Shown one piece after another: positions 14,569 through 31,016 of a stretch of 36,645 bases of DNA. Source of the DNA: an uncultured Clostridia bacterium (GTDB lineage: Bacteria > Bacillota > Clostridia > Christensenellales > Borkfalkiaceae); the NCBI GenBank assembly GCA_947632505.1, contig CANRPN010000007.1, forward strand, positions 1 to 36,645, read 5' to 3'. Positions within the stretch are counted from its first letter, which is position 1. Each line of letters begins with the position of its first letter. The translations under genes and the position numbers were made by a program. A model generated the notes under the pieces. That model worked only from the letters and a program-made list of their open reading frames with translations, was not told the origin of the DNA and did no database searches.

Positions 14569-16761
14569 TTATTTGAGTTTGGGGTATTTCTGCCCGGAAA
14601 AATTCAATCCTTCGAGATCCCATACGCTTTCGTCCCAACCGAGAGTATCAGTATAGAATGATTTTCGATTTAACGCAGATTCGATTGCGGGAGAACCTCC
14701 CGTAACTGTAACAGTGTACGCTTTATAGCACTGTTGTTGCGTTCCATTCCCTTCGGTTAAAGCACAAATTGCATTCAACTGGCACCAGTGATTGACGTCG
14801 GTTATATCTCCATTGAAAAGACAATTTTCAACTTTACCGGCATTTCTACCGACAACACCGCCAACGCTGCATCGCGGTCCACCGCTTTTGGTCTGCGTAC
14901 TGATTTGAGCACACACAAATGCTTTTTCGACAGTACCCGTATTTTCACCGACTACGCCACCCACAAAATGGAAACATATGTCATTATAATTGGGATCTGA
15001 GTTACCAACCGCACTCAAAGAACCCGTAAATTGTACATTGCTGATTGTTCCATCGTTCTTTCCTGCAACTCCTCCGACGATCGAACTGGGATAGGAAAAC
15101 ATTCCTGCGGAATTTCTGAAATCAATGTTTGCGGAAACGGCTACATTTTTGATTTGCCCCTTATTATATCCAACAACAGCACTACACATCAATCCGGCGT
15201 TGCGTCCCCAGCTCCCTGCTACTGTAAGTGTTACCTGCTCCAATTTCAAGTTTTGGATCGTCCCTTCGTTGACACCGAAAAATCCGATCTTGTTCCCAGA
15301 GGAAACATAAATCGAAAAATTATAAATTTTATGACCCGCACCGTTAAAATCACCGGTAAATGGATTACCATCAGGTGCGAACATCGGGATTTGCAACCCC
15401 GAGCAATCAATATCCTCGGTAAGAACATATTTCCCGTTCATGTCTGTGATTTTTTGCAACTGCATAAAATCATCGATTTTGGTATATTCCGCAAGAGGAT
15501 CTTTTTCCCAATGTCCATAAATATGCAAATTGGAGTGAAGCTCTATGGGGAATTGTACTTCTTGGGTGTACTGCGCGTTATAATACCACCCCTTAAAGAG
15601 ATAATTTTGGACCTGCGGCGCTTCAAACGAGGAATAGTGAGTGCCCGCCTCGGCACGGATGGGGGAGGGGGTATCGCCCGCATTTACATGGAATGTGATC
15701 GTGTACATCGTCTTCTTCCACTGCGCGTACACGAAGAGGTTCCCCGTGATCGTCAATGGATATTCCACCGGCCGTTCAAAGGCTTCGTCGTAGTACCAAC
15801 CCACAAAATCATAGTCGGTGCGGGTGGGGTCGGGAAGTTTTTCGACAGTTTGCCCCGCAAAATATTCCGCGGGCTGCATGGGGTCGCCGTTCTGCGTGTC
15901 AAATGTAATACGGTACTTCGTTTTCGCCTGCCAGCGGGCATAGAGCGTAATATCCTTCGTGACGGGAGAGACATTCGTAAACTGCCCGTCGTTCACCGTG
16001 TTCCCTGTAAACCACCCCAAAAACGTGAAGTTTTCGCGCGTGGGGATAGGGAGCTCCAAAACGTCGCCGTAGCTTACTGTCTGCTCTTTTTTGAACTCCT
16101 TGGGAAGGTCTCCGCCCTGCGCGTCAAAGGTGACGGTGTGCTTCTCATTTGCGTGAGGATAGTTTTCCCCTTTCTCCCCTTGCAACCATTCGAGGAAGTC
16201 TTGTTCCGTGCCGCTGTGCCCGTTTTCTTTCCAAATATCATAGGCGCTCTTGCCGTCTGCGCCCGTATCGCCTTTTTCGCCCTGCGGGCCCTGAGGACCT
16301 TGCGTACCCGTGTCGCCCTTTTCGCCTTTCAGCCATTCGAGGAAGTCTTGTTCAGTGCCGCTGTGTCCGTTTTCCTTCCAAATGTCATAGGCGCTCTTGC
16401 CGTCTGCACCCGTGTCGCCCTTTTCACCCTTTTCGCCTTGGGAACCTTGCGAGCCCTCTCCTTTCTCGCCTTGCAACCATTCGAGAAAATCTTCTTCCGT
16501 GCCGCTGTGCCCGTTCTCTTTCCAAATGTCATAGGCGCTCTTGCCGTCTGCGCCCGTGTCGCCCTTTTCGCCCTGAGGACCTTGGGGGCCTTGTTCGCCT
16601 TGGGGGCCTTGTTCGCCTTGGAGCCCCTGTTCGCCCTGTACGCCCTGCGCACCCGGGTCGCCTTTCTCACCCTTTTCCCCTGCGCAAGCGCAAAACAGCG
16701 CAAGACAGAGGACAAAGAGGAAGCAATTCGTTAAAACAACGAGCAGTCTTTTCCGTTTCAT
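14569..16761 (-). CDS. Collagen-like surface lipoprotein with InlB-type and GLUG-like repeats
   Basis: 730 residues. A signal peptide ends in FCAC (Cys26, a slightly unusual lipobox), so the protein is probably lipid-anchored outside the cell. Residues about 28-220 are collagen-like Gly-X-Y tracts (GEKGDPGAQG type) interrupted by three copies of a 25-residue unit, KSAYDIWKENGHSGTE then (E/Q)DFLEWL, known from phage and surface collagen-like proteins. Residues about 225-450 hold three InlB B-type (Flg_new) repeats ending FLGWF, FVGWYY and FKGWYY. The C-terminal 280 residues are GLUG-like beta-solenoid repeats (GGVAGKNDGTI, GGVVGENTGTV, GGVVGRNAGKV). It probably mediates attachment or biofilm contacts (inference). 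ATG 16761 has AGGAG upstream; longer starts conflict with the promoter. Confidence 0.9.
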   Translation of the reverse strand: MKRKRLLVVLTNCFLFVLCLALFCACAGEKGEKGDPGAQGVQGEQGLQGEQGPQGEQGPQGPQGEKGDTGADGKSAYDIWKENGHSGTEEDFLEWLQGEKGEGSQGSQGEKGEKGDTGADGKSAYDIWKENGHSGTEQDFLEWLKGEKGDTGTQGPQGPQGEKGDTGADGKSAYDIWKENGHSGTEQDFLEWLQGEKGENYPHANEKHTVTFDAQGGDLPKEFKKEQTVSYGDVLELPIPTRENFTFLGWFTGNTVNDGQFTNVSPVTKDITLYARWQAKTKYRITFDTQNGDPMQPAEYFAGQTVEKLPDPTRTDYDFVGWYYDEAFERPVEYPLTITGNLFVYAQWKKTMYTITFHVNAGDTPSPIRAEAGTHYSSFEAPQVQNYLFKGWYYNAQYTQEVQFPIELHSNLHIYGHWEKDPLAEYTKIDDFMQLQKITDMNGKYVLTEDIDCSGLQIPMFAPDGNPFTGDFNGAGHKIYNFSIYVSSGNKIGFFGVNEGTIQNLKLEQVTLTVAGSWGRNAGLMCSAVVGYNKGQIKNVAVSANIDFRNSAGMFSYPSSIVGGVAGKNDGTISNVQFTGSLSAVGNSDPNYNDICFHFVGGVVGENTGTVEKAFVCAQISTQTKSGGPRCSVGGVVGRNAGKVENCLFNGDITDVNHWCQLNAICALTEGNGTQQQCYKAYTVTVTGGSPAIESALNRKSFYTDTLGWDESVWDLEGLNFSGQKYPKLK
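16180..16640 (-). repeat. Coding tandem repeats of the collagen-like region
   Basis: Three near-identical DNA copies of about 85-90 bases encoding the KSAYDIWKENGHSGTE unit begin at about 16205, 16346 and 16496 (spacing about 141 and 150 bases), separated by Gly-X-Y coding sequence. Their high DNA identity suggests recent duplication and a potential for copy-number change. Confidence 0.85.
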
Positions 16762-16777
16762 GTGTGTTCTCCTTTTT

Positions 16778-16793
16778 TGTACAAGTTTCTTGT
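16778..16793. promoter_or_regulatory. Operator O1 of the XRE/collagen-like locus
   Basis: TGTACAAGTTTCTTGT. It shares 15 of 16 bases with the left part of O2 (16808). It lies within the 5' leader of the collagen-like gene, just after the predicted start at 16799. Confidence 0.7.
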
Positions 16794-16805
16794 CCTTTTT
16801 CCTTA

Positions 16806-16834
16806 ATTGTACAACTTTCTTGTACATTTGTCAA
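16806..16834 (-). promoter_or_regulatory. Promoter of the collagen-like gene with embedded operator O2
   Basis: Minus-strand TTGACA (16834-16829), exactly 17 bases, TACAAT (16811-16806). The perfect inverted repeat TGTACAA-CTTTC-TTGTACA (16808-16826) fills the spacer and touches the -10. O1 and O2 start exactly 30 bp apart, so they lie on the same face of the helix. A protein bound here would block RNA polymerase. Confidence 0.85.
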
Positions 16835-19260: not shown

Positions 19261-19719
19261 TTACAGATAGAGCACGGGGACTCCCTTTTTCCCCGCATAG
19301 CGCACGGTGTAGGCCGCGCCGCCCGTCGGCTTGGTGCAGTAGGCGAGCAAAATGTCTGCTCTGTCCACCATGTAGCGGTCGCGGGCGAGAAAACAGCCGT
19401 CCCGATAGACGGGAAAGAGCACCGTTTTACGGTCGCAACGGGGGAGGAGCTCCTCGAACATGTTCCTGTATTTGGGCGAAAAGCCCTTTCCGAAGCCTTC
19501 ATAGGGCAAACACGCCTCGATGCAGATCTCTTTCTCCCGTTTGAGCCAAACAAGGCAGCTCAGCGCCTCTAAATCGAATCCCTCCGCCATGCCGCACAGA
19601 AAGTTCTCGCAGCCCCCTTCGAGAAGGAGCCGCAGACGGTCGTACAGGGCGCTCTTGTCAAAATCGCGCGGAAGCTCGCGGTGTCCCGTCAGCGCGCAGG
19701 TCATGTAAAATTTTTTCAT
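19261..19719 (-). CDS. SLOG/YpsA-like (DUF1273) protein
   Basis: 152 residues of a Rossmann-like fold. Family features: N-terminal TGHRELP (11-17) and GMAEGFDLEA (43-52), then ADILLAYCTKPTGGAAYTVRYA near the C-terminus, where the GG loop would hold a nucleotide or nucleotide-derived ligand. SLOG proteins are proposed sensors or processors of nucleotide ligands; YpsA of Bacillus affects cell division. Its ATG overlaps the rsmG stop as ATGA, so it is translationally coupled to rsmG, an unusual partner for a gene next to the origin. Confidence 0.85.
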   Translation of the reverse strand: MKKFYMTCALTGHRELPRDFDKSALYDRLRLLLEGGCENFLCGMAEGFDLEALSCLVWLKREKEICIEACLPYEGFGKGFSPKYRNMFEELLPRCDRKTVLFPVYRDGCFLARDRYMVDRADILLAYCTKPTGGAAYTVRYAGKKGVPVLYL

Positions 19720-20414
19720 ACGAGGGGAGCGCTCCTCTCTCTTCCCCGTCCGCGCGGATATTTTTCAGGCGTCGGCGAAATTTTTTCGATCACTGCGATC
19801 GTCCGCTTCCCATATCCATCCGGCAGGGAAAAGCGGCAGATCTTCTCCACCCGTCCCCCGAGAAGGCGAATGGCGCGCCGTGCCTCTTCGAGTTCCTCCT
19901 CCGCCTCGCCCTTATAGGCAAGAAATCTCCCGCCGACCTTCACGAGAGGCAGACAGTACTCCGCAAGCGTGTTCATCCGCGCGACGGCGCGGGCGCAGCA
20001 GACGTCGTACTTTTCGCGGAATTTTCCCCGTGCGGCGTCCTCGGCCCGCAATTTTTCCACCGTCATACGGGAAAGACCGAGCTCCCGCACCGCACGTTCG
20101 AGAAAGGCGCACTTTTTGCCCACGCTCTCAAAGAGGGTGAAGGATAGATCGTCGCGCAAGATTTTCAGCGGAATGGAGGGAAACCCCGCGCCTGAGCCCA
20201 CTTCGGCAACGGAGGCGTTCTGCGGGAAAAACCCCTCGCCCGCGGCGGAATCAAGAAAGTGCTTGTAGAGCATCTCCCGCTCCTCCACCACGGCCGTGAG
20301 ATTGCAGGTCTCGTTGGAGCGCAGCAAAAGCGCACGGAAAGCGGAGAACGTCTCCCCGTGTTCCTCACGGATACATCTGAGAAGGCCCGCAAGATCGGGC
20401 ATATCTTGTTCCAT
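19716..20414 (-). CDS. rsmG: 16S rRNA (guanine-527-N7)-methyltransferase
   Basis: Methylates G527 of 16S rRNA using S-adenosylmethionine. 232 residues from ATG 20414, the normal length. The SAM site is VAEVGSGAGFPSIPLKIL, followed by FESVGKKCAFLERAV and the CCARAVARMNTLAEY and GGRFLAYKG segments. The frame is open to 20645, but that region is origin sequence. A promoter TTGCGG-17-TATAAT (20450-20422) puts the transcription start at 20415/20414, so the mRNA is predicted to be leaderless. rsmG next to the origin is a widespread arrangement (gidB). Coupled to the SLOG gene through an ATGA overlap. Confidence 0.95.
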   Translation of the reverse strand: MEQDMPDLAGLLRCIREEHGETFSAFRALLLRSNETCNLTAVVEEREMLYKHFLDSAAGEGFFPQNASVAEVGSGAGFPSIPLKILRDDLSFTLFESVGKKCAFLERAVRELGLSRMTVEKLRAEDAARGKFREKYDVCCARAVARMNTLAEYCLPLVKVGGRFLAYKGEAEEELEEARRAIRLLGGRVEKICRFSLPDGYGKRTIAVIEKISPTPEKYPRGRGRERSAPLV

Positions 20415-20421
20415 GCCATTG

Positions 20422-20450
20422 ATTATAGCACATTTTTCGCGGTTCCGCAA
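20422..20450 (-). promoter_or_regulatory. rsmG promoter, predicted leaderless start
   Basis: Minus-strand TTGCGG (20450-20445), 17 bases, TATAAT (20427-20422), then CA-ATG-GC-ATG. The expected first transcribed base is at or one base before the rsmG ATG at 20414. No Shine-Dalgarno sequence lies between. Confidence 0.75.
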
Positions 20451-20485
20451 GGGGAGAGAGGCGCGCTTCGCCGTGAAATTGTCGA

Positions 20486-20790
20486 TTTGTTTTTCCACAT
20501 TGTGGAATTTTTTGTGGAACGTTCTCTCTTTTTCCGCATTCTCCCGCCCTCTTCTTCTGCCCTGCCCGCACCCGTCCTGACACCTCATTTTCTCCGTTGA
20601 CATTTCCCCGCGCTGTCCACTTTTTCTCAACGGCCTTTTCCACAAAGATTTACACGCCCCGATTTTTTGAAATTTCCCCTTTTTGCTTGAAATTTTTCTT
20701 CTTTTCCGCTATAATAGGAGGAAATAAAGGGTGTGAGGCAAACTTATCCACTTTTCCACCGCCTTTATTATTATTACTATTAAGATTCTT
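20486..20790. other. oriC: Predicted chromosomal replication origin (oriC)
   Basis: Lies between divergent rsmG and dnaN. DnaA-box-like sites (Bacillus consensus TTATCCACA): TTTTCCACA at 20491-20499 and 20636-20644, a perfect palindrome TTCCACATTGTGGAA (20493-20507), and the tandem pair TTATCCACT (20744-20752) and TTTTCCACC (20752-20760). The pair is followed by a GC cluster CCGCC (20759-20763) and six trinucleotides, TTA x4, CTA, TTA (20765-20782), which read 3'-AAT x4, GAT, AAT-5' on the other strand, fitting the DnaA-trio consensus 3'-(G/A)A(T/A)-5'. AT-rich DNA follows. Gene strand bias also switches here. Confidence 0.85.
20687..20715 (+). promoter_or_regulatory. dnaN promoter
   Basis: TTGAAA (20687-20692), 17 bases, TATAAT (20710-20715). 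Predicted start about 20722, so the tandem DnaA boxes and trios at 20744-20782 lie inside the dnaN leader. DnaA bound there could repress dnaN. Confidence 0.8.
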
Positions 20791-20820
20791 ATTAAAAAAA
20801 CCACAGAAAGGAGCAAGAAG

Positions 20821-21918
20821 ATGAAATTTGTATGCGATGGGCTCTCCCTCTCGGAGGCCGTGACGAAAGCAAGCAAGGCGTGCGCCATCCGCACGACCGC
20901 ACCCATCATGGAATGCGTAAAACTGACGGCAAAAAGCGACGAAGTGATCCTTCTTGCGACGGACGGGGAACTCTCCATCCGCAAGGCGATTAAAGCGGAG
21001 GTGTTCGAGGAGGGAGAAGTATGCGTCACGGGAAAACTGCTCTCCGACTTTTTGGGCAAGCTCTCGGATGAGGAGATCACCATCAAAACGGGAGAACGCG
21101 GGCTGGAAATCTGCTACCGCGACGCCTCCTCCTTTTTGCAGACGCTCCCCGCGGAGGAATTTCCCGAGATCGACCTCGAAACGGGCGAAAATTATTTCGT
21201 TATGAAACAGGGAGCCCTCAAAAAGCTCATCGGCGAGACGGTGTTCTGCTGCGCGCAGGACGATTCCCGCCCCATCCTCAAAGGCTGCCTCTTCGAATTT
21301 AAGGAACGGCTTGAAGCGACCGCGCTCGACGGCTACCGCCTTGCCCTCTCCTCGGCCGAACTTGTTTCGGGCAATGAAGAGAGAAATATCATCTGTCCCG
21401 CCCGCACCCTCACCGAGATCTCCCGCATGCTCACCGATGACGACAAGGAGATCACCGTGTACACCCGCGGCGGAAATCTTCTCGTGAGCATAGACGGGCT
21501 GACGATCGTCTCCCGCCTCTATCAGGGCGAGTTTATCCGCAAGGAGAGCGTGGTGCCCGCCTCCTTCCTCACCGAAGTCACCCTGCCCCGCCTCGACCTT
21601 ATGTCGAGCGTGGAGCGCGCGGCCATCCTCATCCGCGGAGACAAGAACAATCTCGTCACGCTCGAAACGACGGGCGACGCCGTGACTGTCCGCTCCGCTT
21701 CCGAAATGGGCAATGTCTCCGAGAGCGTGGGCGCCAATATCCTCGGAAAGGACATCACGATTTCCATGAACGCCAAATATCTGCTCGACGGGCTGCGCGC
21801 CCTCGACGAAGAGGAATGTGTGCTCTCTTTCAACAGCCCGATCTCTCCCTTTATTCTTCAAAATAAGGAAAAGAAAGACACCCTCTATTTGATTTTACCC
21901 GTCAGAAATGCACAATAA
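20821..21918 (+). CDS. dnaN: DNA polymerase III beta subunit (sliding clamp)
   Basis: Ring-shaped processivity clamp of the replicative polymerase. 365 residues, slightly shorter than the Bacillus protein (378). Three clamp domains are recognisable: N-terminal (MKFVCDGLSLSEAVTKASKAC, LLATDGELSIR), middle (RPILKGCLFEF, LEATALDGYRLALSSAEL) and C-terminal (LLDGLRALDEEECVLSFNSPISPFILQ, ending LILPVRNAQ, with the usual P-V/M-R end). The start has AAAGGAG ten bases upstream. Unlike the usual dnaA-dnaN-recF order, no dnaA precedes it and rpmH follows it. Confidence 0.97.
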   Translation: MKFVCDGLSLSEAVTKASKACAIRTTAPIMECVKLTAKSDEVILLATDGELSIRKAIKAEVFEEGEVCVTGKLLSDFLGKLSDEEITIKTGERGLEICYRDASSFLQTLPAEEFPEIDLETGENYFVMKQGALKKLIGETVFCCAQDDSRPILKGCLFEFKERLEATALDGYRLALSSAELVSGNEERNIICPARTLTEISRMLTDDDKEITVYTRGGNLLVSIDGLTIVSRLYQGEFIRKESVVPASFLTEVTLPRLDLMSSVERAAILIRGDKNNLVTLETTGDAVTVRSASEMGNVSESVGANILGKDITISMNAKYLLDGLRALDEEECVLSFNSPISPFILQNKEKKDTLYLILPVRNAQ

Positions 21919-22748: not shown

Positions 22749-24170
22749 ATGATTTCTTTTCCGCTACTCCAACAGGGATTTTATATCGATCTCAATTGGT
22801 TGGGACAACTTGTCAGGATCATCATTGACGGCGTCGGCATAGTCGGCGTCGGTGTCATTGTGTTTGCGCTCATCTTAAAGGCCATCACCACACCTTTCGA
22901 CATCTACCAGCGGGTGAAAATGCGCAAACAGAACCTCATTATGGAGCAGATGAAGGACGATCTCGAAAAGCTCCAAAAGCAGTACGCGGGCGACAAGCAG
23001 ATGTACAACATGAAGATGCTCGAACTGCAAAAAAAGAACGGTTACAGTATGCTCGGGGCCTGCCTGCCCATGATCCTGTCCTTTGTGATCCTCATCGTCG
23101 CGATCACAGCCTTTCAGACCTACGCGCAGTACGCCAATCTCTCCATGTACGAGAGAATGGCCGAGGGCTATAATTCCGCCGTCCTCGAATATGCCGTGGA
23201 CGGCAAAGACTATCACTTTTTGCAGGAGGGAGAGGAGGAAAACGACCTCGTCATTACCCTCGAAAAATTCCAAACGGACGAAAACGGCAACCGCTCCTTT
23301 ACCGAGGACGGGATCGTATATTCCCTCGTCGAAGAGGGCGAAATTTTGCGGATGCAGGTGGAGAGCTCCGCAGCGGACATCTATTTCTGCTATCGCTACA
23401 ATCTCTCCCCCGCCGACGCGGCGCGCACCTATTTCATCAATGAGGACAAGCTCAAAAACAACGCCGAGATCTGGGGAAAGATCGAGGAACGGATGACAGC
23501 GGGCGCCGCTGAGGACACCGCATGCATCGAATATTTCCAGTCGCTCGGCGCAGCGGCCTCCGCAAACGTGTTCCGCACCGAGAAGAACCCCGGCTTTTTG
23601 TGGGTGAAAAACGTTTGGTATCCCGACGTCAGCTACAACCACCCCGTGCAGGAGTATTCCTCCTTTAAGAGCACTTTCAATTCGGGGATCCGTTCGGAGA
23701 ATTGGGAGGGAGAAAAGAGCATCGGCGAAGTGATCTCCGAATCCAACTATAACGCACTCACGGCCGACCTTTCCGCCGAGAAAGAGCAGGCCAACGGTTA
23801 CTTTGCGATGATCATCATCTCGATCGGGCTCATGCTCCTTTCGCAGTTTATCACCATGCGCAGCAGTAAGGCCGCCAACCAATACAACACGGTAGACGGA
23901 CAAGGCGCGCGCACACAGAAGATCATGATGGTCATGATGCCCATCATGTTTGCGGTGTTCGGCTTCTTATGGAGCGCCGCGTTTACCATTTATAATATCA
24001 TCAGCAGCGCCATCACCATTCTTGTCACCCTGCTCACAAACATTGTCATCGGCAGGATCTTCAACAAGAAGGAAGAGGAGGCGCTCAAAGCGCGTTACAG
24101 CCGCAGCGTCCCCTGGAAAAAGGACGGCAAGGATGCAAATGACGGCAAAGACAGGAAAAAGAGAAAATAA
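22749..24170 (+). CDS. yidC: Membrane protein insertase YidC/SpoIIIJ with large insertion
   Basis: 473 residues, against about 260 for typical Gram-positive YidC. Helix 1 (about 19-45) includes LILKAITTPFDIYQRVKMRKQ; K44 stands where Bacillus and E. coli have the groove arginine. The cytoplasmic hairpin QMKDDLEKLQKQYAGDKQMYNMKMLELQKKNG (about 68-98) is normal, and helix 2 (about 102-124) follows. Residues about 125-349 are a soluble insertion of about 225 residues outside the membrane, absent from SpoIIIJ and placed differently from the P1 domain of E. coli. The last three helices (350-372, 392-412, about 413-436) and a Lys-rich cytoplasmic tail follow. No lipobox is visible at the N-terminus. 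Seven bases after yidD. Confidence 0.93.
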   Translation: MISFPLLQQGFYIDLNWLGQLVRIIIDGVGIVGVGVIVFALILKAITTPFDIYQRVKMRKQNLIMEQMKDDLEKLQKQYAGDKQMYNMKMLELQKKNGYSMLGACLPMILSFVILIVAITAFQTYAQYANLSMYERMAEGYNSAVLEYAVDGKDYHFLQEGEEENDLVITLEKFQTDENGNRSFTEDGIVYSLVEEGEILRMQVESSAADIYFCYRYNLSPADAARTYFINEDKLKNNAEIWGKIEERMTAGAAEDTACIEYFQSLGAAASANVFRTEKNPGFLWVKNVWYPDVSYNHPVQEYSSFKSTFNSGIRSENWEGEKSIGEVISESNYNALTADLSAEKEQANGYFAMIIISIGLMLLSQFITMRSSKAANQYNTVDGQGARTQKIMMVMMPIMFAVFGFLWSAAFTIYNIISSAITILVTLLTNIVIGRIFNKKEEEALKARYSRSVPWKKDGKDANDGKDRKKRK

Positions 24171-27087: not shown

Positions 27088-27103
27088 TGTTTCACGTGAA
27101 ACA
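27088..27103. promoter_or_regulatory. parS: parS site 1 (perfect)
   Basis: TGTTTCACGTGAAACA, an exact match to the universal ParB/Spo0J binding palindrome, extended to 18 bp by A/T at the ends. Its reader, parB, is at 30129. Confidence 0.98.
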
Positions 27104-27131
27104 TGGCAAAATTCGCCAATTTGACTCGAGT

Positions 27132-27147
27132 AGTTTCACATGAAACA
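27132..27147. promoter_or_regulatory. parS: parS site 2
   Basis: AGTTTCACATGAAACA, differing from the consensus at the first base and at one central base. Confidence 0.93.
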
Positions 27148-27187
27148 ATTTTTAGGCTATTTTGGGGATACGCAAGGCAAAAAACAA

Positions 27188-27203
27188 TGTTTCACATGAA
27201 ACA
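27188..27203. promoter_or_regulatory. parS: parS site 3
   Basis: TGTTTCACATGAAACA, one central base from the consensus. It is exactly 100 bp from site 1. Confidence 0.96.
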
Positions 27204-29319: not shown

Positions 29320-29353
29320 TTTTTACGGGAGAATATAAAAAGAGGTGATACGT

Positions 29354-30127
29354 ATGGGCAAAATCATTCCGTTTTCCAATCAGAAAGGGGGCGTCGGCAA
29401 GACGACGACCTGCGTGAATATGGCGGCGTATCTTGCAAAGGCGGGCAAAAAGGTACTGCTTGCGGACATCGACCCGCAGGGCAACGCCACGACGGGGCTT
29501 GGTTTTACCAAGAGCCAGATCAAAAAGTCCGTCTACAATGTTCTCATCGAGGATGAACCCGTCAAAGAGAACATCCTCCCCACCATGATGCCGAACCTGT
29601 TTTTGCTGCCCGCAAACATCGACCTTGCAGGCGCCGAAGTAGAGCTCGTCTACAAGAAAAACAGAGAACGGGTCTTAAAAACGGCGCTCGACAAGGTGAA
29701 AAACGAGTACGATTTCATTCTCATCGACTGTCCCCCTTCTCTGGGTCTTATCACGATCAACGCGCTCGCCGCGGCAGACAGCGTGATCATTCCCATACAA
29801 AGCGAATATTACGCGCTCGAAGGGTTGAGCCAGCTCATGAACACGATCTCCCTCGTGAAACAGCACCTCAACAAGGGCCTGTACGTGGAGGGCGTGGTGC
29901 TCACCATGCACGACCGCCGTTCCCTCATCAGCCGCCAGATCGCCGAGGAGATCAAAAGGTACTTTACCAAAAAGCTGTACGAGATCATTATTCCGCGCAA
30001 CGTGCGCCTTGCGGAGGCGCCCAGCCACGGCAAACCCATTCTGCTCCACGACCCGAGATGTATGGGCGCAAGGGCGTATGCGGCGCTGACCGAAGAATTT
30101 TTGAAGAAAACCGAAGGAGGAGAATGA
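29354..30127 (+). CDS. parA: Chromosome-partitioning ATPase ParA/Soj
   Basis: 257 residues. Deviant Walker A KGGVGKTTT (about 10-18), Walker A' LLADIDPQGNATTGLG, and Walker B FILIDCPPSLGLITINAL. Binds DNA non-specifically as an ATP dimer and is stimulated by ParB; in Bacillus it also controls DnaA. ATG 29354 has AGAGGTG six bases upstream; the GTG at 29345 is less well placed. The stop is one base before the parB ATG, so the pair is translationally coupled. Confidence 0.97.
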   Translation: MGKIIPFSNQKGGVGKTTTCVNMAAYLAKAGKKVLLADIDPQGNATTGLGFTKSQIKKSVYNVLIEDEPVKENILPTMMPNLFLLPANIDLAGAEVELVYKKNRERVLKTALDKVKNEYDFILIDCPPSLGLITINALAAADSVIIPIQSEYYALEGLSQLMNTISLVKQHLNKGLYVEGVVLTMHDRRSLISRQIAEEIKRYFTKKLYEIIIPRNVRLAEAPSHGKPILLHDPRCMGARAYAALTEEFLKKTEGGE

Positions 30128-30128
30128 G

Positions 30129-31016
30129 ATGGCTAAGGGCTTAGGCAGAGGGCTTTCGGCGCTGTTCAGCGACACGGAGGAGGCCTACGAAAACGCAACC
30201 GAGGGGATCACGGGGGGCGCCACGGAGCTTGCGCTCGCAGATATTTTCCCCAATCCCAACCAGCCGCGCAAGGTGTTCGACGAAAGCGCGCTGCTCGATC
30301 TCACCAACTCCATCAAGGAACACGGCGTGATCAGCCCCATCGTCGTCAACAAGAACCCGGACGGCACTTATATGATCATCGCAGGCGAGCGCAGATACCG
30401 CGCCGCCAAAAAGGCAGGCCTCACCACCATTCCCGCCGTCATCAAGGAGCTCGACGAGCGTGAAGTACAGGAAATTTCCCTCATCGAAAACCTGCAACGG
30501 GAGGACCTCAACCCCATCGAAGCCGCATACGGAATGAAAAAACTCATGGAGGAGTACAACCTCACGCAGGAGGTGCTTGCCGAGCGGCTGGGCAAGTCCA
30601 GACCCGCGATCGCCAATACGTTGCGTCTTTTGACGCTCTCCGAAGAGGTGATCGCGCTCGTGCGGGAGGGTAAACTCTCCTCGGGCCATGCGCGCACGCT
30701 CGTACCCGTTCCCAAGGAGGAGCAGGGCGCGCTCGCGCAGGAATGCGTCAAGGAGGGCTGGTCGGTGCGTGAAACGGAGCGCGCCGTCAAGCAGTTCCTG
30801 AACCCGCCCGAAGTGCTCAATCGCCAAAAGGAGGCGAAAAACGCCCTCGCGAACGCCGAACTCAAACATTTTGTGGAGCGGCTGAGAACGACGTTCAAGA
30901 CAAAAGTTTCCCTCATCGGCACCGAAAAGAAGGGCAGGATCTACATCGACTACTACTCTCGCGACGATTTGGACCGCATCTGCGAGATGCTGGACATCAT
31001 CGACCGTCAGGAGTAA
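30129..31016 (+). CDS. parB: Chromosome-partitioning protein ParB/Spo0J
   Basis: CTP-dependent DNA clamp that loads at parS. 295 residues. N-terminal CTP-binding domain (about 35-125) with NPNQPRKVFD, the GERRYRA motif and ENLQREDLNPIEAA; central HTH domain (about 130-230; YNLTQEVLAERLGKSRPAIANTLRLL, SSGHARTLV); C-terminal dimer domain (about 240-295). GGAGGAG precedes ATG 30129. Its targets, three parS sites, lie about 3 kb upstream in the same window. Confidence 0.97.
   Translation: MAKGLGRGLSALFSDTEEAYENATEGITGGATELALADIFPNPNQPRKVFDESALLDLTNSIKEHGVISPIVVNKNPDGTYMIIAGERRYRAAKKAGLTTIPAVIKELDEREVQEISLIENLQREDLNPIEAAYGMKKLMEEYNLTQEVLAERLGKSRPAIANTLRLLTLSEEVIALVREGKLSSGHARTLVPVPKEEQGALAQECVKEGWSVRETERAVKQFLNPPEVLNRQKEAKNALANAELKHFVERLRTTFKTKVSLIGTEKKGRIYIDYYSRDDLDRICEMLDIIDRQE

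Follow-up and report, generated by a model that had tools for sequence, protein, structure and literature searches.

The 406-bp intergenic region between rsmG and dnaN is very probably the chromosomal origin of replication (oriC) of a Gallimonas-type Clostridia bacterium. An earlier note on this DNA had proposed a replication origin at 20486-20790, and the proposal is supported by the order of the elements of a basal unwinding system (BUS), by their presence upstream of dnaN in 78 of 81 loci of the genus, and by a GC-skew minimum at the BUS in five of five strongly skewed relatives. The gene dnaA is gone from this origin and is now found elsewhere, flanked by mnmG and a recF-like gene. The origin is accordingly a single uninterrupted site and not two sites around dnaA.

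The window (36,645 nucleotides) is the entire contig C7 of a draft genome of 1.79 Mb, which comprises 130 contigs and is 88% complete. Named relatives, with up to 88% identity in DnaN, are rabbit-gut and other uncultured Clostridia, including Candidatus Gallimonas species; we take Borkfalkiaceae to be the family name of this lineage. The gene order on C7 is rsmG (-), the intergenic region, dnaN (+), rnpA, yidD, yidC, jag, yyaC (-), ftsH, parA and parB, the start of rsmG being placed, from its translation, at the ATG at 20414. The switch of gene direction from rsmG (-) to dnaN (+) that the earlier note had pointed out recurs in its relatives: of the 80 genus loci with more than 900 bp of flank, 76 have rsmG pointing away from dnaN at a distance of no more than 800 bp. 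The genes rnpA and yidC follow dnaN in 78 of 78. The partition genes and sites that had been placed nearby are present as well, parS and parAB lying 6-10 kb from the candidate origin. The parS site at 27088 is exact and those at 27188 and 27132 have one and two mismatches, respectively; three such matches (up to 3 mismatches) were seen where 0.16 were expected. Feature positions are collected in the table.

Features of the candidate origin and its surroundings (positions in the window)
Feature	Position	Strand	Remark
rsmG (gidB)	19716..20414	-	left border of origin region; TIGR00138 148.8 bits on ORF 19716-20645
rsmG-dnaN intergenic region, 406 bp, proposed oriC	20415..20820		
Distal DnaA box TTTTCCACA	20491..20499	+	invariant in 12/12 aligned sequences
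Palindrome TTCCACATTGTGGAA	20493..20507		
DnaA box AATTCCACA	20501..20509	-	inverted pair with palindrome region
Weak box-like site CTGTCCACT	20613..20621	+	from sequence
DnaA box TTTTCCACA	20636..20644	+	TTCCAC invariant in 12/12 aligned sequences
Promoter-like TTGAAA-17-TATAAT, reading through BUS into dnaN	20687..20715	+	11/12 consensus bases
BUS upstream (stronger) DnaA box TTATCCACT	20744..20752	+	1 mismatch
BUS downstream (weaker) DnaA box TTTTCCACC	20752..20760	+	2 mismatches
CCGCCT, GC cluster and spacer from box 2 to trios (CCGCC 20759-20763)	20759..20764	+	
Six DnaA-trios, bottom strand 3'-AAT AAT AAT AAT GAT AAT-5'	20765..20782	-	
Predicted unwinding element	20763..20803		least stable 40-bp duplex of window
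Likely dnaN ribosome binding site AAAGGAG	20807..20813	+	directly past predicted unwinding element; from sequence
dnaN	20821..21918	+	TIGR00663 251 bits; single match in genome
Three parS sites (starts 27088, 27132, 27188)	27088..27203	+	
parA	29345..30127	+	ParA-type matches below curated cut-offs
parB	30129..31016	+	TIGR00180 197.7 bits, cut-off 58.45

Some other genes of the contig have features of their own. ParB has in addition a match to the Noc model, whose curated cut-off of 315 bits it does not reach (238.5 bits), and YidC (22749-24170, +; 473 residues) has its family matches in separate stretches, 33-117 and about 354-424, which suggests a large internal insert. A 752-residue protein encoded at 14569-16827 (-), with collagen-like and Listeria/Bacteroides-repeat matches that are mostly below the curated cut-offs, is likely a surface protein. 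RNA families and tRNAs were searched for in the window and none was found.

Direct reading confirms the tandem DnaA boxes, the CCGCC cluster and the six trios (3'-AAT four times, GAT, AAT-5') at the positions given in the earlier note, together with the extra boxes and the palindrome upstream. The order likened there to the basal unwinding system of Bacillus subtilis is complete at 20744-20782; the succession of box, box and trios was found in 0 of 5000 shuffles and a run of six triplets in 0 of 2000. The top strand of the trio tract reads TTA TTA TTA TTA CTA TTA, beginning 12 bp past the stronger box and 4 bp past the weaker, and it is the sole run of at least five YTR triplets on either strand of the window. 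The pattern CCACN{1,12}YTAYTAYTAYTA has one match in the 88%-complete draft genome, and its reversed control has none. Five box-like sites are located in the 400 bp from 20421 to 20820, the densest such stretch of the window, against a shuffle mean of 0.26 (five or more in 0 of 2000 shuffles). Duplex stability was computed from nearest-neighbour energies, and among separate sites 20763-20803 ranks as the weakest in the window at 40 bp, third at 60 bp and sixth at 100 bp.

Both a BUS and an oriC are known kinds of element. As set out in the available text of PMC8287927, a BUS has at least three trios (3'-NAN-5') no more than 16 bp from a DnaA box, and tandem boxes of which the upstream one is nearer to consensus, the stronger box standing about 10-13 bp from the trios; here there are six trios and the distance is 12 bp. 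The same text gives 3'-GAT-5' as the commonest trio, above all beside the box, as a tendency and no requirement (PMC8287927); five of the six trios in the window are AAT.

Loci of the genus were collected through the similarity of their DnaN, without regard to the origin, and the best 80 of 144 together with the window made up the set of 81. Boxes followed by at least three trios are located upstream of dnaN in 78 of these, and the three misses (L097, L110 and L125) have a similar tract with a broken register. A stricter tandem-box pattern matched 75 of the 81 loci, compared to 0.02 in shuffles. The strong box of these 75 is TTGTCCACA in 39, its third base being G in 51, A in 20, T in 3 and C in 1, and the gap from the second box to the first trio is 4 nt in 67. 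Their trios comprise 227 TTA, 133 CTA, 7 TTG and 6 CTG; A comes first in 234 of the 373. In 39 of the 75 loci the first trio begins with G. An alignment of the window with 11 of its 12 nearest loci (L097, which has a shorter flank, was omitted) reveals invariant bases at the promoter, at the two boxes and the trios of the BUS and, further upstream, in the distal box TTTTCCACA and in the TTCCAC of the 20636 box. By pattern, the inverted TCCAC/GTGGA pair is found in 30 of the 81 loci and a promoter similar to TTGAAA-17-TATAAT in 62. The promoter of the genus stands before the BUS; at four family loci (L020, L022, L026 and L035; g3 and g11) a promoter-like sequence is found between the BUS and dnaN.

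GC skew was analyzed on the window and on nine contigs of relatives, with p values from block shuffles (smallest possible 0.0005); the sequences of G095 and G046 were used without 5 and 3 kb, G085 from 40,001 and G008 to 197,000. A strong switch from negative to positive skew is present in five of the ten contigs (G027, G095, G088, G008 and G085; p 0.0005 in each), and in all five the minimum adjoins the BUS on its dnaN side, 12-58 bp from the start of the trios. In G027, which belongs to the same genus, the minimum is at 178,357 (58 bp), and in G095 at 336,382 (49 bp); the distances in G088, G008 and G085 are 43, 12 and 15 bp. The BUS of G095 and G088 is 798 and 927 bp from dnaN, respectively, and there the minimum goes with the BUS. 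The earlier note had looked to a skew minimum at the site, and this holds for the strongly skewed relatives and not for the window itself, where the cumulative minimum is 3.2 kb from dnaN and the change point is not significant (p 0.23). Four relatives also give no support: G055 and G046 (p 0.037 and 0.052) have their minimum 3.3 and 17.8 kb away, and G092 and G042 (p 0.16 and 0.43) 6.3 and 21 kb away. Divergent genes can create a local skew minimum without replication, and the base-level precision is partly a matter of composition at the gene divergence; it is the contig-wide switch that constitutes the evidence.

The absence of dnaA from the window, which the earlier note had remarked upon, is borne out: the window is all of C7, and dnaA is a single gene on contig C17, the sole match to the DnaA domain in the genome. 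Its neighbours there are mnmG downstream and a divergent recF-like gene (Pfam SMC_N/AAA_23). The 25 kb of C17 contain one site within one mismatch of TTATCCACA and two TTWTNCACA sites, none of them near dnaA. Six dnaA loci of the genus were read (G105 and G075 were left out), and none has a DnaA box near the dnaA start; one has a box 725 bp into the open frame. Conversely, no dnaA is found in up to 4 kb of flank at any of the 81 dnaN loci of the genus, where rsmG is upstream instead. In the bipartite arrangement of Firmicutes dnaA stands immediately before dnaN, with a box cluster on either side of it; this genome is not arranged in that way.

The separation extends to the family sample. Among its 121 genomes dnaN was identified in 117, dnaA in 120 and both in 116; the two genes are on one contig in 16 of these, 5.9 (G089) to 288 kb apart, and on different contigs in the rest. 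Outside the family, 99 genomes of the order contain both genes. In 58 of them dnaA immediately precedes dnaN; in 7 it is close by in a rearranged order, in 7 distant on one contig, and in 27 on another contig, in some cases possibly because of contig breaks. A DnaN tree of 71 rows (40 of the 41 not-adjacent and 20 of the 58 adjacent genomes of the order, and 11 of the family) requires at least 12 changes of the adjacency label; given its weak inner branches and a sample enriched in split genomes, it shows only that dnaA-dnaN splits recur.

Beyond the genus the BUS is less regular. It is missing within 460 bp of dnaN in 6 of 28 readable family loci, in three of which it is located further upstream. 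In 34 further family loci a strict triplet rule detected a tract and box within 1.5 kb upstream of dnaN in 16, of which G003 and G041 are doubtful, and several of the family misses (g12, g13, g16 and g17) contain visibly decayed tracts. The loose pattern CCACN{1,12}YTAYTAYTAYTA matched 35 of the 121 family genomes, at 53 places against 24 for the reversed control, so it counts in its own genus only. Of 60 loci of the order, 20 from adjacent and 40 from split genomes, 8 and 10, respectively, have a loose form of the pattern within 400 bp (0.08 and 0.3 in shuffles), and 3 and 5 a strict one (0 in shuffles); the tight Gallimonas form of the BUS is not general.

The boxes and trios might instead be mainly a DnaA-controlled leader of dnaN, with the true origin at dnaA or elsewhere. 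The strong promoter-like sequence runs straight into the boxes and dnaN, and the GC skew of the window is itself not significant, both of which fit a leader; it is nonetheless improbable, because the skew minimum is at the BUS in all five relatives with strong skew, including those in which 0.8-0.9 kb separate the BUS from dnaN, because dnaA sits on the slope of the skew and has no box nearby in the six loci read, and because neither trios nor a weak duplex would be required of a leader. An origin at dnaA itself was rejected, since no box is nearby in those loci and there is no skew switch there on G027 and G095, where dnaA (at 35.8 and 46.6 kb, respectively) lies inside a one-sided slope. A locus with both dnaA and denser boxes, the competitor that the earlier note had envisaged, was not found, the dnaA of C17 being without a nearby box. 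A denser cluster does exist on C38 (13679-13770), where a 50-bp stretch has three near-consensus boxes and there are additional cores, and it is kept in part of the genus; that this is the origin is exceedingly unlikely, as it has no dnaA, no trios were seen, the cluster lies in the leader of a small ORF, dnaN is not on C38 and fewer than two boxes are found in eight of eight loci of other genera.

It is scarcely credible that dnaA only seems to be separate because of binning errors or broken contigs. The draft consists of 130 contigs and is 88% complete, and in 10 of the 117 family genomes with dnaN that gene is within 2 kb of the contig start, so that its neighbours there are not fully visible; yet both genes are well inside contigs in the genome studied, the 16 family genomes with both on one contig have them kilobases apart, and rsmG, not dnaA, is upstream in the 81 genus loci. 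Equally slight is the chance of a bipartite origin to which the distant dnaA locus still supplies DnaA boxes. Clostridioides difficile needs both oriC1 and oriC2 around dnaA (available text of PMC7561715), but in Gallimonas the six dnaA loci read have no box near the gene, apart from the one 725 bp into the frame, and dnaA and dnaN can be as far apart as 288 kb.

The ORF behind the C38 cluster (C38:13679-13960) is conserved, encodes 67 residues without a Pfam match and was found in 36 of 41 genomes of the genus and in 24 of 61 of the family. The boxes in its leader are usually paired in opposite orientation, their starts separated by 24 or 16 bp, and at least two near-consensus boxes are found in 13 of 20 loci of the genus and in 2 of 3 further ones, compared to 0 of 8 in other genera. 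The ORF is possibly a DnaA-controlled gene or a titration site. Another possible DnaA-box cluster, of three TCCAC cores in 36 bp including TTATCCACA, is located at C101:402-437.

The DnaA of this bacterium matches that of B. subtilis (8btg, E 5e-94). The earlier note had suggested that the lineage leans towards TTTTCCACA boxes and that the preference of its DnaA may be shifted. The first part was rejected, since TTTTCCACA is confined to the spare boxes of the window and the strong box of the genus is TTGTCCACA (39 of 75 loci); a shift stands in another form, with changes in residues that contact box and trio. In domain IV the DHTTxxH of E. coli and B. subtilis, positions which presumably touch box bases, is DH[AS]TxxY in seven of seven genus proteins read. 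Mycobacterium tuberculosis DnaA also has this Y, and actinobacteria prefer the box TTGTCCACA. DHAT..Y occurs in the family genera g4, g7 and g14 too, and the domain IV change is therefore not peculiar to the genus. In the ISM, the trio contacts of B. subtilis, Asn187, Ile190, Ile193 and Arg202, correspond to Asn, Val, Met and Arg, and Glu228 to Ala. The ISM is 5-7 residues longer than that of B. subtilis in six genus proteins read, and longer in several other family genera as well.

According to the available text of PMC10721633, Arg202 and Glu228 of B. subtilis DnaA bond the trio guanine, growth is severely impaired by alanine at 228, and firing is reduced at an origin whose trios are all AA. 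Residue 228 and the tract were readable, under one rule, in 45 genomes of the family and order (22 without a tract were dropped); the residue varies between E, A, S and V, with Glu in 30 genomes and another residue in 15. With Glu228, G opens 92 of 134 trios, and the first trio in 24 of 30 genomes; with the other residues the counts are 16 of 77 trios and 4 of 15 genomes. The difference (genome-level rank test p 6e-6; group means, 20 vs 7, p 0.0003) is not a blind test, since the idea arose after several cases had been seen, the residues of 30 genomes (tract known or sought) being unseen at that time. GC content shows no difference between the two sets (p 0.56). Exceptions are G003 and G020, which have Glu and A-first trios, and G055, with Ala and a G-first fraction of 0.67. 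A DnaA tree with residue 228 masked requires only two changes of residue class, which makes two independent comparisons, too few for a sign test to reach significance; the two usually agree. Covariation of residue 228 with the first trio base is suggested by these sequences.

A possible, if rather doubtful, extension is that DnaA and the origin co-evolved in the reading of trios. Glu228 would have given way to Ala, Ser or Val at least twice in the order, the trios changing each time from 3'-GAT-5' to 3'-AAT-5', with residue 228 setting the first letter; and with dnaA moved out, its boxes lost and the promoter running through the BUS, occupancy of the origin would in addition gate the supply of the clamp instead of that of DnaA.

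Comparison with known systems relies on the available text of the papers cited. The BUS of B. subtilis (boxes 6/7 and trios) has the same tandem boxes, the upstream one nearer to consensus, a short spacer, a trio repeat and a weak duplex, in the same position directly before dnaN, and further upstream boxes that could loop (PMC6669920, PMC10721633). Unlike in B. subtilis, there is here no dnaA on the other side, the trios are mostly 3'-AAT-5' and not 3'-GAT-5', and DnaA differs at position 228 and in the length of the ISM. The bipartite oriC of C. difficile, also a member of the Clostridia, has a tract CTACTACTATTACTACTA beside DnaA boxes before dnaN (PMC7561715); there dnaA lies between oriC1 and oriC2, whereas here all boxes are in the single rsmG-dnaN region. 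For cyanobacteria, an origin near dnaN, with dnaA and dnaN apart, has been reported, and in Synechococcus elongatus it is likewise found at a shift in GC skew (PMC7198777); this is a distant phylum with different neighbours, and the separation described here must be a separate event. Ori-Finder work also notes that oriC is not always near dnaA (PMC10225481). Among the titles listed in a literature search, none deals with the origin of this lineage.

In the published B. subtilis model, oligomerisation along the trio strand starts from DnaA bound at the tandem boxes, and distal boxes hand over DnaA by looping (available text of PMC6669920, PMC8287927, PMC10721633). By analogy, ATP-DnaA would bind the stronger box at 20744 and the weaker one at 20752, the distal boxes at 20491-20509 and 20636 may deliver further DnaA by looping, and DnaA would oligomerise across the GCC spacer onto the six bottom-strand trios, whereupon about 20763-20803 would open for helicase loading.

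In Firmicutes, rnpA-rpmH-dnaA-dnaN is described as a conserved gene context (available text of PMC7561715). This context was broken, and an unwinding element kept, in one family of gut Clostridia and in members of several others within the order. If the covariation of residue 228 with the first trio base holds, natural variation would provide a testable one-residue rule for the reading of trios by DnaA. The loss of dnaA from the origin separates what an origin needs from what is custom, and it cautions against placing an origin by its dnaA.
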